A DNA stretch of 64,000 bases. Source: Tahibacter amnicola (GTDB lineage: Bacteria; Pseudomonadota; Gammaproteobacteria; Xanthomonadales; Rhodanobacteraceae). The stretch lies in NCBI RefSeq assembly GCF_025398735.1, contig NZ_CP104694.1, positions 5,545,465-5,609,464 of the forward strand. Reading direction: 5' to 3'. The notes beneath the pieces were generated by a model that did not search any database, was not told the origin of the DNA, and worked only from the letters and a program-made list of their open reading frames with translations. The translations under genes and the position numbers were made by a program. This document shows, one piece after another, positions 57,661-62,099 of the stretch; within the stretch, counting starts at the first letter, position 1, and each line of letters starts with the position of its first letter.

Positions 57661-57695
57661 GAACACGAGGCACTTCCTGTGCCTCTTTTCGCTGT
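57661..57695 (-). repeat. Conserved palindromic element, copy A, upstream of the rpsJ promoter
   Basis: 35 bp, 31 identical to copy B at 62065-62099. Core inverted repeat GAGGCAC-N5-GTGCCTC, flanked by GAACAC and TTTTCG. It ends 33 bp upstream of the -35 hexamer, exactly as in copy B. No T-run follows on the minus strand, so it is not an ordinary terminator for tuf. Confidence 0.85.
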
Positions 57696-57700
57696 AGTTT

Positions 57701-57725
57701 GGCCGCCCCAACATTGGGGGCGGCC
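57701..57725 (-). terminator. Hairpin after tuf
   Basis: GGCCGCCCC/GGGGCGGCC stem (57701-57709 with 57717-57725) begins 17 bp beyond the tuf stop. There is no T-run; possibly a terminator or mRNA 3' end stabiliser. Confidence 0.5.
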
Positions 57726-57741
57726 GAAAGCCTAGTTTAGA

Positions 57742-58932
57742 TCAGGCGAAGATCTTGGCGACGACGCCGGCGCCGACGGTGCGGCCACCTTCGCGGATCG
57801 CGAAGCGCAGACCTTCTTCCATCGCGATCGGCGCGATCAGGGTGACAACCATCTTGATGTTGTCGCCCGGCATCACCATCTCGACGCCTTCCGGCAGCTC
57901 GACGTTGCCCGTCACGTCCGTCGTACGGAAGTAGAACTGCGGGCGGTAACCCTTGAAGAACGGGGTATGACGACCACCCTCTTCCTTCGACAGCACGTAC
58001 ACTTCCGCTTCGAACTTCGTGTGCGGGTTGATCGAACCCGGCTTGCACAGCACCTGGCCGCGCTCCACTTCGTCACGCTTCGTGCCGCGCAGCAGCAGAC
58101 CCACGTTGTCGCCCGCCTGGCCCTGATCCAGCAGCTTGCGGAACATTTCAACGCCCGTCACCGTCGTCTTCACCGTCGGACGGATACCCACGATTTCGAT
58201 TTCTTCGCCGACCTTGATGACGCCGCGCTCGACGCGACCCGTCACCACCGTGCCGCGACCCGAGATCGAGAACACGTCTTCCACCGGCATCAGGAACGGC
58301 TTGTCCAGCACGCGCACCGGCTCCGGAATGTAGCTGTCCAGCGCTTCCACCAGCTTGATGATCGCCGGCACGCCGATGTCGCTCTGATCACCTTCCAGCG
58401 CCTTGAGCGCCGAACCCTTGATGATCGGGGTGTCGTCACCCGGGAATTCGTACTTGCTCAGCAGGTCGCGAACTTCCATCTCGACCAGTTCCAGCAGTTC
58501 CGCGTCGTCCACCATGTCCGCCTTGTTCAGGAAGACCACGATGTACGGCACGCCGACCTGGCGCGCCAGCAGGATGTGTTCACGCGTCTGCGGCATCGGA
58601 CCGTCAGCCGCCGAGCACACCAGGATCGCACCGTCCATCTGCGCCGCACCCGTGATCATGTTCTTCACGTAGTCGGCATGGCCCGGGCAGTCAACGTGCG
58701 CGTAGTGACGGTTCGGCGATTCGTATTCCACGTGCGCCGTCGAGATCGTGATTCCGCGCGCCTTTTCTTCCGGCGCCGCGTCGATCTGGTCGTACGCCTT
58801 GAACTCGCCGCCAAAACGCTCTGCGCCAATCTTGGTCAGCGCCGCCGTCAGCGTCGTCTTGCCATGGTCCACGTGACCAATCGTGCCGACGTTCACGTGC
58901 GGCTTGGTGCGCTCGAATTTACCTTTTGCCAT
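57742..58932 (-). CDS. tuf: Elongation factor Tu
   Basis: 396 aa. GTPase motifs [18 protein letters not shown] and NKADMVDD are intact, followed by the two beta-barrel domains. It delivers aminoacyl-tRNA to the ribosome. Fourth gene of the str operon, 39 bp after fusA. A second tuf copy is common in this group but is not in the window. Confidence 0.98.
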
Positions 58933-58971
58933 GACTTAAAACCTCAAACTTGTGAATATCTGAACGATGAC

Positions 58972-61065
58972 TTAGCCGGCCTTCTTCATCACTTGCTCGG
59001 CGATATTGTTCGGCGCCTCGGCATAGTGATCGAATTCCATCGTGAAGGTGGCACGACCCTGCGACATGGAGCGCATCGAGGTGGCGTAGCCAAACATTTC
59101 ACCCAGCGGGACCAGCGCGTTGATGACCTTGCCCGACGGGCTGTCATCGGAACCCTGCAGGATGCCGCGACGACGGGAAAGGTCGCCCATCACGTCACCC
59201 ATGTAGTCTTCCGGCGTCACGACTTCGACCTTCATGATCGGTTCCAGCAGGACCGGATTGGCCTTGTTGAAACCTTCCTTGAAGCCCATCGAGCCGGCGA
59301 TCTTGAACGCCATTTCGTTGGAGTCGACTTCGTGGTACGAACCGTCGACCAGCTTGACCTTCACGTCGACGACCGGGAAACCCGCCAGGATGCCGTTCTG
59401 CATCGCTTCCTTGATGCCCTTGTCGACTGCCGGCACGTATTCCTTCGGAACCGAGCCACCGACGGTGGCGTTCTCGAAGACATAGCCGGCGCCGCGTTCC
59501 TGCGGCTCGATCTCGAGCACGACGTGACCGTACTGGCCCTTGCCGCCCGACTGACGCACGAACTTGCCTTCCTGCTTGACCGCCTTGCGGATCGTTTCGC
59601 GATACGCCACCTGCGGCTTGCCGACATTGGCCTCCACGTTGAACTCGCGCTTCATGCGGTCAACGATGATTTCCAGGTGCAATTCACCCATGCCGGCGAT
59701 GATCGTCTGGCCGGATTCCTCGTCGGTGCGCACGCGCAGCGAGGGATCTTCCTGAGCCAGACGCGACAGCGCGAGGCCCATCTTCTCCTGGTCCGACTTC
59801 GTCTTCGGCTCGACGGCCATCGCGATGACGGGCTCCGGGAACACCATGCGTTCCAGCGTGATGACATCGCTCGGGGCGCACAGGGTGTCACCCGTGGTGA
59901 CATCCTTCAGGCCGACCGCAGCAGCGATATCGCCCGCGCGGACTTCCTTGATTTCGTCACGCTGGTTGGCGTGCATCTGCAGGATGCGGCCGACGCGCTC
60001 TTTCTTGCTCTTGACCGGATTGAACACGGTGTCGCCGGAATTCAGCGTGCCCGAATAGACACGGAAGAACGACAGCGAGCCGACGAACGGGTCGGTCATG
60101 ATCTTGAACGCCAGCGCCGAGAACGGCGCGGTGTCGAGCGCCTCGCGCGAAGCTTCCTTCTCGTCTTCGTCGATGCCCTTGACCGGCGGACGGTCGGACG
60201 GAGCCGGCAGGTAGCGGATAACCGCGTCCAGCATCGCCTGCACGCCCTTGTTCTTGAATGCCGTGCCACAGAACACCGGAATCAGGGAGGTCGCCAGGGT
60301 GCCGGCGCGAATACCCTTCATGATTTCCTCTTCCGAGAGCTCGCCCTCTTCGAGGTACTTGTTCATCAGCTCTTCGGAGGTTTCCGCAGCGGCCTCGACC
60401 ATGAAGCTGCGCGCCGTGTTGCACGCCTCGACGAGGTTGGCCGGGATGTCGCGGTATTCGAACTTCGTGCCCTGGGCTTCGACGTCCCAGTAGATCGCCT
60501 TCATCTTGATGAGGTCGACCACGCCTTCGAAGTTTTCTTCCGCGCCAATCGGCATCTGCATCGGAACCGGGTTCGCACCCAGACGAGCCTTCAGCTGGCC
60601 CACGACCTTGTGGAAGTCAGCACCGGTGCGGTCCATCTTGTTGACGAAAGCCAAGCGCGGCACGCCGTACTTGTTGGCCTGACGCCACACGGTCTCGGAC
60701 TGCGGCTGCACACCACCCACCGCGCACAGCACGAACACGGCGCCATCGAGCACGCGCAGACTGCGTTCGACTTCGATGGTGAAGTCAACGTGTCCCGGGG
60801 TATCGATGATGTTGAAGCGATGTTCCGGGAAGGACATGTCCATGCCCTTCCAGAAGCAGGTCGTCGCGGCAGACGTGATGGTGATGCCGCGTTCCTGTTC
60901 CTGCTCCATCCAGTCCATCGTCGCGGCACCTTCGTGCACTTCGCCGATCTTGTGGTTGACGCCGGTATAAAAAAGGATGCGTTCGGTCGTCGTCGTCTTG
61001 CCGGCATCGATGTGAGCCATGATGCCGAAGTTGCGATAACGCTCGATGGGGGTAGTACGGGCCAC
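58972..61065 (-). CDS. fusA: Elongation factor G
   Basis: 697 aa, full length. [15 protein letters not shown] (G1), [21 protein letters not shown] (G3) and NKMDRTGAD (G4) are present; domains II-V are complete with the [10 protein letters not shown] region near the C-terminus. It drives translocation and, with RRF, ribosome recycling. 16 bp after rpsG. Confidence 0.98.
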
Positions 61066-61081
61066 GGTCGTTCCTCAGCTC

Positions 61082-61549
61082 TTACCAGCGGTAGTGCGAG
61101 AACGCCTTGTTGGCTTCCGCCATACGATGCGTTTCTTCGCGCTTCTTGACTGCCGAACCACGATTTTCAGCGGCTTCCAGCAGTTCGGCCGCCAGCTTGC
61201 GCGGCATGGAGTTTTCGCTGCGCTTGCGCGCGGCGTCGATGACCCAACGCATGGCCAGGGCGGTGCGGCGGGTAGCGCGCACTTCGACCGGAACCTGGTA
61301 GGTCGCACCGCCGACGCGGCGGGACTTGACTTCGACCGCCGGGGCGACGTTGTTCAGCGCCTTCTCGACCAGGGTCAGCGAATCGGCGTTCTTCTGACCG
61401 ATATGGTCGAGAGCGCCATAGACGATGCCTTCGGCGACGGACTTCTTGCCGCTCTTCATCACCATGTTGATGAAGCGGGCAATCAGCTGGCTGCCGTGCT
61501 TCGGATCGGAGAGAAGAACGCGGGTGGGGGCGGAACCTTTACGCGACAT
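61082..61549 (-). CDS. rpsG: 30S ribosomal protein S7
   Basis: 155 aa, the short form of S7. VNRVAKTV is not here; instead the typical [20 protein letters not shown] and [20 protein letters not shown] blocks are seen. It organises the 30S head and represses the str operon in E. coli. 17 bp after rpsL. Confidence 0.97.
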
Positions 61550-61566
61550 GATTCAAGCCTTCCTTA

Positions 61567-61941
61567 TCAGGACTTCGGGCGCTTGGCGCCGTACTTCGAG
61601 CGACCCTGGCGACGCTTCGCGACGCCGGCGGCATCGAGCGAACCGCGCACCGTGTGGTAGCGCACGCCCGGCAGGTCTTTCACACGGCCGCCGCGGATCA
61701 GGACCACCGAGTGCTCCTGAAGATTGTGGCCTTCGCCACCGATGTAGCTGATGACCTCGTAGCCGTTGGTCAGACGAACCTTGGCCACCTTGCGCAGGGC
61801 CGAGTTCGGCTTCTTCGGGGTGGTCGTGTACACACGGGTGCAGACGCCGCGACGCTGCGGGCAGCTCTGCAGCGCCGGAGACGCGCTCTTATAGGTCTTC
61901 GGGCTACGCGGTTTACGCACCAGCTGGTTGATAGTCGCCAT
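61567..61941 (-). CDS. rpsL: 30S ribosomal protein S12
   Basis: 124 aa from the ATG at 61941 ([12 protein letters not shown]). Lys43 (TPKKPNS) and Lys88 ([12 protein letters not shown]) are the wild-type residues, so no classical streptomycin-resistance substitution is present. Asp89 is the methylthiolation site. First gene of the str operon, behind its own promoter. Confidence 0.98.
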
Positions 61942-61955
61942 TCGTGGATGCCTTA

Positions 61956-61989
61956 AGAAACAAAAGACAGGCCGACACAACTCGGCCTG
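61956..61989 (-). terminator. Terminator-like hairpin in the str operon leader (candidate attenuator)
   Basis: On the minus strand CAGGCCGA pairs perfectly with TCGGCCTG around GTTGTG (61989-61968), followed by TCTTTTGTTTC. It begins about 6 nt after the predicted start and ends just before the rpsL ribosome site. Confidence 0.7.
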
Positions 61990-62001
61990 CCAAGACGCAA
62001 G

Positions 62002-62031
62002 AGTTTAACAAGCGGTTGACAGGGGCGTCAA
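62002..62031 (-). promoter_or_regulatory. sigma70 promoter of the str operon
   Basis: TTGACG (62031-62026), then TTAAAC after 17 bp or TAAACT after 18 bp (62008-62002) on the minus strand. Predicted start near 61995, 54 nt upstream of rpsL. Confidence 0.75.
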
Positions 62032-62064
62032 CTAAGACACCCCCGCCTCCACGTCCATGTCCTC

Positions 62065-62099
62065 GAACACGAGACACATCCTGTGTCTCTTTTCGATGT
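62065..62099 (-). repeat. Conserved palindromic element, copy B, upstream of the rpsL promoter
   Basis: 35 bp, 31 identical to copy A at 57661-57695. Core inverted repeat GAGACAC-N5-GTGTCTC: one stem position is A-T here and G-C in copy A, a compensatory change. 33 bp upstream of the -35 hexamer, as in copy A. It lies 32 bp beyond the rpoC stop. Confidence 0.85.

Follow-up and report, generated by a model that had tools for sequence, protein, structure and literature searches.

The str and S10 operons of Tahibacter amnicola (Gammaproteobacteria; Xanthomonadales; Rhodanobacteraceae) are each preceded by a copy of the same palindrome, and both copies lie within the 64,000-nucleotide stretch of contig NZ_CP104694.1 (positions 5,545,465 to 5,609,464; assembly GCF_025398735.1) that is analysed here and referred to as the window. 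Substitution patterns in relatives identify the palindrome as the first hairpin (hairpin 1) of an RNA element that has two sites and is read in mRNA sense, and genome searches show that several families of the Xanthomonadales have retained this element at rpoC-rpsL and at tuf-rpsJ. Judged by its sequence, the element is probably a site for a single dimer of RsmA (CsrA) in RNA that enters the str and S10 operons, lying before a terminator-like hairpin.

The two copies (57661-57695 and 62065-62099) are identical at 31 of 35 positions, as the initial annotation had stated, and in 300 mononucleotide shuffles of both intergenic regions the best-matching 35-mers agreed at 19.5 positions on average and at no more than 23. 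The compensatory pair that had been noted among the differences is also real, one G-C pair in one copy being replaced by A-T in the other. All genes concerned lie on the minus strand, in the order rpoC, copy 2, rpsL-rpsG-fusA-tuf, copy 1, rpsJ. A degenerate 32-base pattern, CGAACACGAGRCACWTCCTGTGYCTCTTTTCG, matches the window twice and none of 100 shuffles, and at up to three mismatches it has two matches in the whole 6.46-Mb genome (none for the reversed pattern); an RNA model search of the same genome, in which 150 of 5407 first-look candidates were scored, returned the same two copies only at E ≤ 10. In the window the hexamer TTGACG begins 33 bp from the edge of each copy, again as originally described. 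The spacers between element and promoter had been called unrelated, which is not wholly so: both contain GACAYGGA (GACACGGA and GACATGGA), and this is the second conserved site of the element. The parts of the two copies are as follows, where R1 denotes a covariance model built from 18 distinct copies.

57660..57691, minus strand: S10 hairpin 1, CGAA AA GAGGCAC AGGAA GTGCCTC GTG TTCG in mRNA sense (R1 score 57.3 bits, fold, pair counts)
57675-57677, minus strand: GGA in the loop of S10 hairpin 1
57646..57656, minus strand: S10 second site, GAC-acGGA-GTC, with its GGA at 57649-57651 and a weak 3-bp stem in this species (sequence, conservation, hairpin-2 statistics)
62064..62095, minus strand: str hairpin 1, CGAA AA GAGACAC AGGAT GTGTCTC GTG TTCG (R1 score 55.3 bits, fold)
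62079-62081, minus strand: GGA in the loop of str hairpin 1
62054..62063, minus strand: str second site, aggacatGGA, with its GGA at 62054-62056 (sequence, conservation)

The consensus of hairpin 1 is CGAA-AW-GAGGCRC-A(N)GGAN-GYGCYTC-GWG-TTCG, that is, a lower stem, an internal loop that is asymmetric (2 vs 3 nt), an upper stem and a GGA-containing loop. In the starting set of 18, all 198 of 198 pair cells are standard, double changes occur at 4 of the 11 pairs and every one-sided change yields G-U. Among 92 distinct elements, the pair cells read in mRNA sense comprise 937 Watson-Crick, 59 G-U, 2 A-C and 14 other combinations, and counting once per genus label and locus class leaves 46 G-U vs 2 A-C (the 47 genus labels were assigned from tables, with six named loci keeping their own names under five labels, and may overcount genera slightly). 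Since a G-U pair on the sense strand would be an A-C mismatch on the other, the structure under selection is that of the tuf- and rpoC-sense RNA. Whole stems are exchanged with pairing retained, as in GAGGGGC/GCCCCTC and CCAA/TTGG. Strong sequence conservation marks the lower stem and internal loop (GAAAWGAG/CTCGWGTTC); A5 and G26 do not vary among the tabulated distinct elements. As its second choice the initial annotation had proposed that the rpoC and tuf transcripts carry an RNA element at their 3' ends, which is correct as to kind. Two other readings of the same letters were rejected. A terminator on the plus strand can be read in the window as hairpin-TTTT, but many relatives have CATTTCG at that position, and a small upstream open reading frame (ORF) beginning ATGAGG does not survive the window sequence AAAAGAGG and loop-length changes that shift the frame.

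A pattern search matched 35 of 147 genomes of the family and no control, whereas R1 finds the element in 135 of the 147 and in 25 of 26 genera, with two matches in 82 genomes, one in 52 and three in one. Matches that share a contig are mostly 4.4-4.9 kb apart (7.4-7.5 kb in genomes G010 and G076). Beyond the family, R1 matches were found in 58 of 151 genomes sampled from the order Xanthomonadales, in families f1, f2, f3, f4 and f6, and in 3 of 274 sampled from the class, all three of which are members of the order; model searches over more than 40 genomes use stricter filters, under which weak matches are lost. Of 80 named fusA loci, six have an R1 match at E < 0.001 (Oleiagrimonas, Alkalisalibacterium, two Arenimonas, Dyella and Lysobacter concretionis) and a further three match at E 0.36-0.46 only. 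The 119 model matches taken forward reduce to 116 entries, L173, L190 and L204 being the same places seen twice; 55 of these fall in the tuf-rpsJ interval and 60 in the rpoC-rpsL interval, and the partial match L193 lies elsewhere, in neither class. The remaining 115 loci, on which the counts below are based, were hand-picked for spread over genera and are a non-random sample. Twelve genomes of the family have no R1 match. Five of them were inspected for rpsL: three are assemblies without an rpsL match, and the other two, G006 and G052, keep degenerate twin sites. G006 has lost the lower stem and retains GGGGGCGC-AAGGAA-GCGCCCC and a second GGA; G052 has a damaged lower stem and has also kept two GGA. 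The GGA sites are thus the core that is kept. Repetitive extragenic palindromes (REP) and SMAG-type palindromes resemble the element in being intergenic palindromes of gammaproteobacteria but occur as many scattered copies. Such scatter, which the initial annotation had named as a finding that would count against it, does not apply, and a REP repeat was rejected, because the own genome has two copies and family genomes one to three matches. Separately, five genera of family f8 (loci L230, L231, L232, L236 and L239) have another conserved stretch between rpoC and rpsL, GCCGATGTCGCCGGCGCGTGGGCCGGA, which also contains GGA.

The loop of hairpin 1 contains GGA in 91 of the 92 distinct elements, and a second GGA begins 5-9 nt past the element in 113 of 115 loci, compared with 6% of background windows. 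In the form A(N)GGA, site 1 is present in 112 and site 2 in 98 of the 115. The distance from GGA to GGA is 22-27 nt in all 112 loci in which it could be measured and 24-26 nt in 103. A stem of at least 4 bp can be formed around the second GGA in 57 of 115 loci (50%, vs 15% with shuffled flanks), and these hairpin-2 stems vary with their pairing kept (gacc/ggtc, ggcc/ggcc, gccc/gggc, gaca/tgtc, gcggc/gccgc). Over the span that begins 40 nt before the element and ends 110 nt past it, A(N)GGA occurs on average 2.3 times in S10 and 2.7 times in str loci, with no excess outside the two sites.

Promoters around the element were scanned, like the terminators, with simple cuts against mononucleotide shuffles. 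The promoters (P1 upstream of the element, P2 downstream), leader hairpins and genes of the window are listed here.

57599..57627, minus strand: S10 promoter P2, TTGACG-17-TACACT (sequence)
62002..62031, minus strand: str promoter P2, TTGACG-18-TAAACT (sequence)
57734..57761, minus strand: weak P1-like match TCGCCA-16-TAAACT, 8 of 12 positions, its -10 ending 42 nt before hairpin 1, at the site of P1 in most relatives
57563..57590, minus strand: terminator-like hairpin with U-run in the S10 leader, just past the predicted P2 start (sequence)
61966..61991, minus strand: terminator-like hairpin with U-run in the rpsL leader, just past the predicted P2 start (sequence)
57742..58932, minus strand: tuf (EF-Tu), the gene upstream of the S10 copy (ORF)
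57185..57496, minus strand: rpsJ (S10), the first gene of the S10 operon (ORF)
62131..63999, minus strand: 3' part of rpoC, extending beyond the window, upstream of the str copy (ORF)
61567..61941, minus strand: rpsL (S12), the first gene of the str operon (the ORF is listed with an upstream TTG start; the ATG start was read from the sequence)

The equal distance to the promoter on which the initial annotation had laid weight holds in the window and its genus (32-33 bp) and fails as a property of the element. Looking for the same spacing in relatives, as had been proposed, recovers the element at S10 and str promoters with a variable distance, 32-57 bp in the 31 S10 loci and 22-79 bp in the 35 str loci in which the downstream promoter scores. 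Of 55 S10 loci, 22 have no downstream promoter that scores 8, and each of these 22 scores at least 8 upstream of the element, at P1; conversely, each of the 14 S10 loci that miss 8 upstream scores at least 9 downstream. S10 loci with an upstream but no scoring downstream promoter imply that the element is transcribed. P1 scores at least 8 in 41 of 55 S10 loci, compared with 14% of shuffled upstream regions (single calls being uncertain), and in 3 of 60 str loci, as in shuffles. Five of the 14 S10 loci under the cut have TATACT or TATATT at the position, with a score of 7. The -10 of P1 mostly ends 35-50 nt before the element, and an upstream TATANT is present at 35 of the 55 S10 loci, where 2 would be expected, and at none of 60 str loci. 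By these scores and the difference in TATANT, most genera examined carry the S10 copy in a leader RNA; the str copy lies in the 3' untranslated region (UTR) of rpoC, where it starts 15-45 nt past the stop codon in 52 of 60 str loci. In the window P1 is weak, and five other loci of its genus score 6 there, so in this genus transcription from tuf may be the only route to the S10 copy. The window also has a GC-rich hairpin without a U-run (57701-57725, minus strand), immediately between copy 1 and the stop codon of tuf.

Between the element and the start codon, a stem of at least 7 bp followed by a T-rich tail is present in 53 of 55 S10 and 57 of 60 str loci (13-16% in shuffles). The two leader hairpins of the window are alike (GGCRGRCC...GGYCTGCC with a U-run), and versions of the rpsL leader hairpin occur also in families of the order without an R1 match.

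Several features of the element point to RsmA. CsrA/RsmA binds GGA in hairpin loops, the CsrB repeat being CAGGA(U/A/C)G, and RsmE contacts an ANGGAN hexaloop; a CsrA dimer bridges two sites 10-63 nt apart (all PMC7652899). Both loop versions occur among the elements, in which the GGA loop is usually closed by C-G as in the hairpins of CsrB and the selected ligand RUACARGGAUGU, and the paired sites, about 25 nt apart, lie within the bridging range. The genome itself codes for an RsmA that is close to homologues of known structure and has the arginine at position 44. Of the 151 genomes sampled from the order, csrA was found in 123, including 58 of 58 that have the element, and the element is in none of the 28 that lack csrA. 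We infer from the sequence that RsmA would bind these RNAs and affect them in the following way. One dimer would clamp both GGA loops, and the conserved lower stem and internal loop would probably offer a further contact or hold the two loops in a set geometry. At the str locus the RNA concerned would be the rpoC 3' UTR or read-through into rpsL, and at the S10 locus the leader from P1 in most genera examined; in the genus of the window, where P1 is weak or absent, read-through from tuf would supply it. The bound dimer might then alter RNA decay or read-through at the terminator-like hairpin, and RsmA might thereby tune upstream-initiated transcription into the str and S10 operons, both of these steps being less certain than those before. 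Sites of this kind have been reported to protect RNA from decay, to block translation and to change termination (PMC7652899), and in Xanthomonas citri hrpG RNA is stabilised by RsmA (PMC3937308).

A number of observations weigh against an RsmA site. The co-occurrence of element and csrA is confounded by ancestry, because 14 of the 20 listed csrA-less genomes (28 in total) belong to a single family, f10, and families f5, f7, f8, f9, f11 and f12 have csrA in their sampled members without any R1 match. The upper stem of hairpin 1 has 7 bp, when most ligands from systematic evolution of ligands by exponential enrichment (SELEX) have at most 4 contiguous pairs (PMC7652899), and most S10 loops are of 5 nt, not 6. 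The lower stem and internal loop are conserved far beyond the known needs of CsrA. In the window the sites lie 122 nt (rpsL) and 163 nt (rpsJ) before the start codons, unlike sites that block a Shine-Dalgarno sequence, and hairpin 2 is weak (3 bp), with RNAfold pairing it in a different register. Fold stability exceeds that of shuffles only moderately: z is -2.3 and -1.5 for the two copies of the window and ranges from -0.9 to -4.2 in five relatives. On the antisense strand the window copies score alike (z -2.0 and -1.6), so that the case for RNA rests on covariation and the G-U bias and not on energy.

Among other explanations, a polymerase-directed RNA element, or a second binder, is possible. 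A put-like or attenuator RNA would act on RNA polymerase itself so that it passes, or stops at, the terminator-like hairpin, and some factor other than RsmA would read the GGA loops; this is unlikely, if slightly less so than the alternatives that follow. It would explain the conserved lower stem, and it is favoured by the arrangement in 53/55 and 57/60 loci, where two hairpins side by side, of which the first has a conserved internal loop, stand before a terminator-like hairpin. However, G006 and G052 have lost or changed the lower stem and kept both GGA, the loops closely match CsrA ligands, and the likeness to put RNA is a presumed one. An autogenous leader site for a ribosomal protein or translation factor encoded in the two operons is improbable. 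The S10 and str operons account for 115 of 116 classified matches, and in E. coli they are known to be under autogenous control by uL4 and uS7 (PMC10931766), but the main rpsL mRNA, made from P2, would begin downstream of the str copy and lack it, a single protein would have to serve two operons, and no Rfam ribosomal protein leader reaches its cut-off. We give an equally low probability to a hairpin that processes or stabilises the 3' ends of rpoC and tuf messages without a dedicated binder. Its position just past the rpoC stop in 52 of 60 str loci and the shuffle-level P1 signal there (3 of 60 at the cut) would suit this role, which leaves unexplained the GGA in both loops, their near-fixed 25-nt spacing and the S10 copies that follow P1. 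Last, the DNA operator or nucleoid-protein site at a fixed distance upstream of the S10 and str promoters that the initial annotation had favoured was rejected and is now very improbable, since the inverted repeat and the 32-33 bp to TTGACG in the window and its genus are outweighed by a spacing of 22-79 bp, 22 of 55 S10 loci without a scoring P2, a G-U bias (46 vs 2) for which a DNA palindrome offers no reason, an asymmetric internal loop (2 vs 3 nt) and a conserved loop GGA that is not palindromic. The accompanying idea of a dimeric regulator common to both operons falls as a DNA binder and may hold if the dimer is RsmA on RNA.

The rpsJ leader has a further motif, a boxA-like sequence at 57511-57522 (minus strand) that reads CGCTCTTTTACC in the window and GTTCTTTCGATAACA in some relatives. 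G[CT]TCTTT lies at most 45 nt from the rpsJ start in all 55 S10 loci, compared with 0.8% in shuffles. S10 (NusE) together with NusB binds boxA, which, with the motif placed before rpsJ itself, suggests that rpsJ is under autogenous control through this leader sequence. Control of Nus factors by boxA is mentioned in a published account (PMC10931766).

No Rfam family matches the element convincingly. At these loci every Rfam match in the window slices and eight relatives is below the gathering score. The lowest E-value in the window slices is 0.19 (Atu_C4, over the terminator-like hairpin), others being 0.35-0.65, and across the eight relatives four matches have E ≤ 1, none overlapping an element. 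Xoo2 (RF02241, a small RNA of Xanthomonadaceae) reaches 15.6 of 45 bits (E 0.65) over S10 hairpin 1 and the terminator-like hairpin, below its gathering score. TwoAYGGAY (RF01731) and Bacillaceae-1 (RF01690) each match two CsrA-binding hairpin motifs and have been proposed as CsrA ligands (PMC4333381). They resemble the element in their two CsrA-type motifs, but neither model reaches its cut-off here. Bacillaceae-1 scores 14.1 of 35 bits (E 2.4, chance level) on the plus strand of the str copy. CsrA has been proposed to bind the reverse complement of Bacillaceae-1 (PMC4333381), and in this sub-cut-off match that complement corresponds to the sense strand. TwoAYGGAY has no match at E ≤ 10 in the window slices and a single sub-threshold match elsewhere in the own genome. 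It has 13 mostly sub-cut-off matches in G079 (nine with the same score) and 7 in G153, which look like a repeat family with that fold.

The element also differs from established RsmA ligands. Unlike the CsrA, RsmA and RsmE hairpins described (PMC7652899), it has a conserved lower stem and internal loop, and its position is between operons, with a promoter and a terminator-like hairpin following it, rather than at a Shine-Dalgarno sequence. With the sponge RNAs CsrB, CsrC, RsmX, RsmY and RsmZ it shares GGA hairpins followed by a terminator-like hairpin, and the piece from P1 to that hairpin at S10 loci would be a short RNA; however, it has two A(N)GGA sites only, is part of operon RNA and in str shows no promoter of its own above shuffle level. 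It is not filed as a sponge because the feature of many GGA sites was looked for and not found. RsmU of Xanthomonas campestris resembles the proposed site in being an RsmA ligand from a 3' UTR (comEA) in the Xanthomonadales (PMC7694677). It differs in locus and has been reported from the genus Xanthomonas only, and changing all four of its GGA motifs did not abolish RsmU binding or effect (PMC7694677). In Xanthomonas, rsmB homologues were reported as not identified, and in 2014 the RNAs that control RsmA were called undiscovered (both PMC3937308). No prior description of the element was found in the open-access literature searched.

Whatever its binder, the element is a structured RNA with strong covariation and no convincing Rfam match that is present in 135 of 147 genomes of the family at two central translation loci. 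The Csr/Rsm system is a switch of metabolism and lifestyle. If the RsmA-type site is true, it would tie this system to the making of the transcription and translation machinery itself (rpoBC, str and S10). A more speculative proposal, which we hold to be doubtful, is that the element is a cis-acting RNA coupling RsmA/CsrA to the synthesis of RNA polymerase and ribosomes: each polymerase passing out of rpoC or into S10 would yield one site for an RsmA dimer, so that growth rate would set free RsmA, and RsmA in turn would set read-through into str and S10. Were this so, the coupling RNA could be part of the missing RsmA antagonism in bacteria where rsmB homologues have not been found (PMC3937308).

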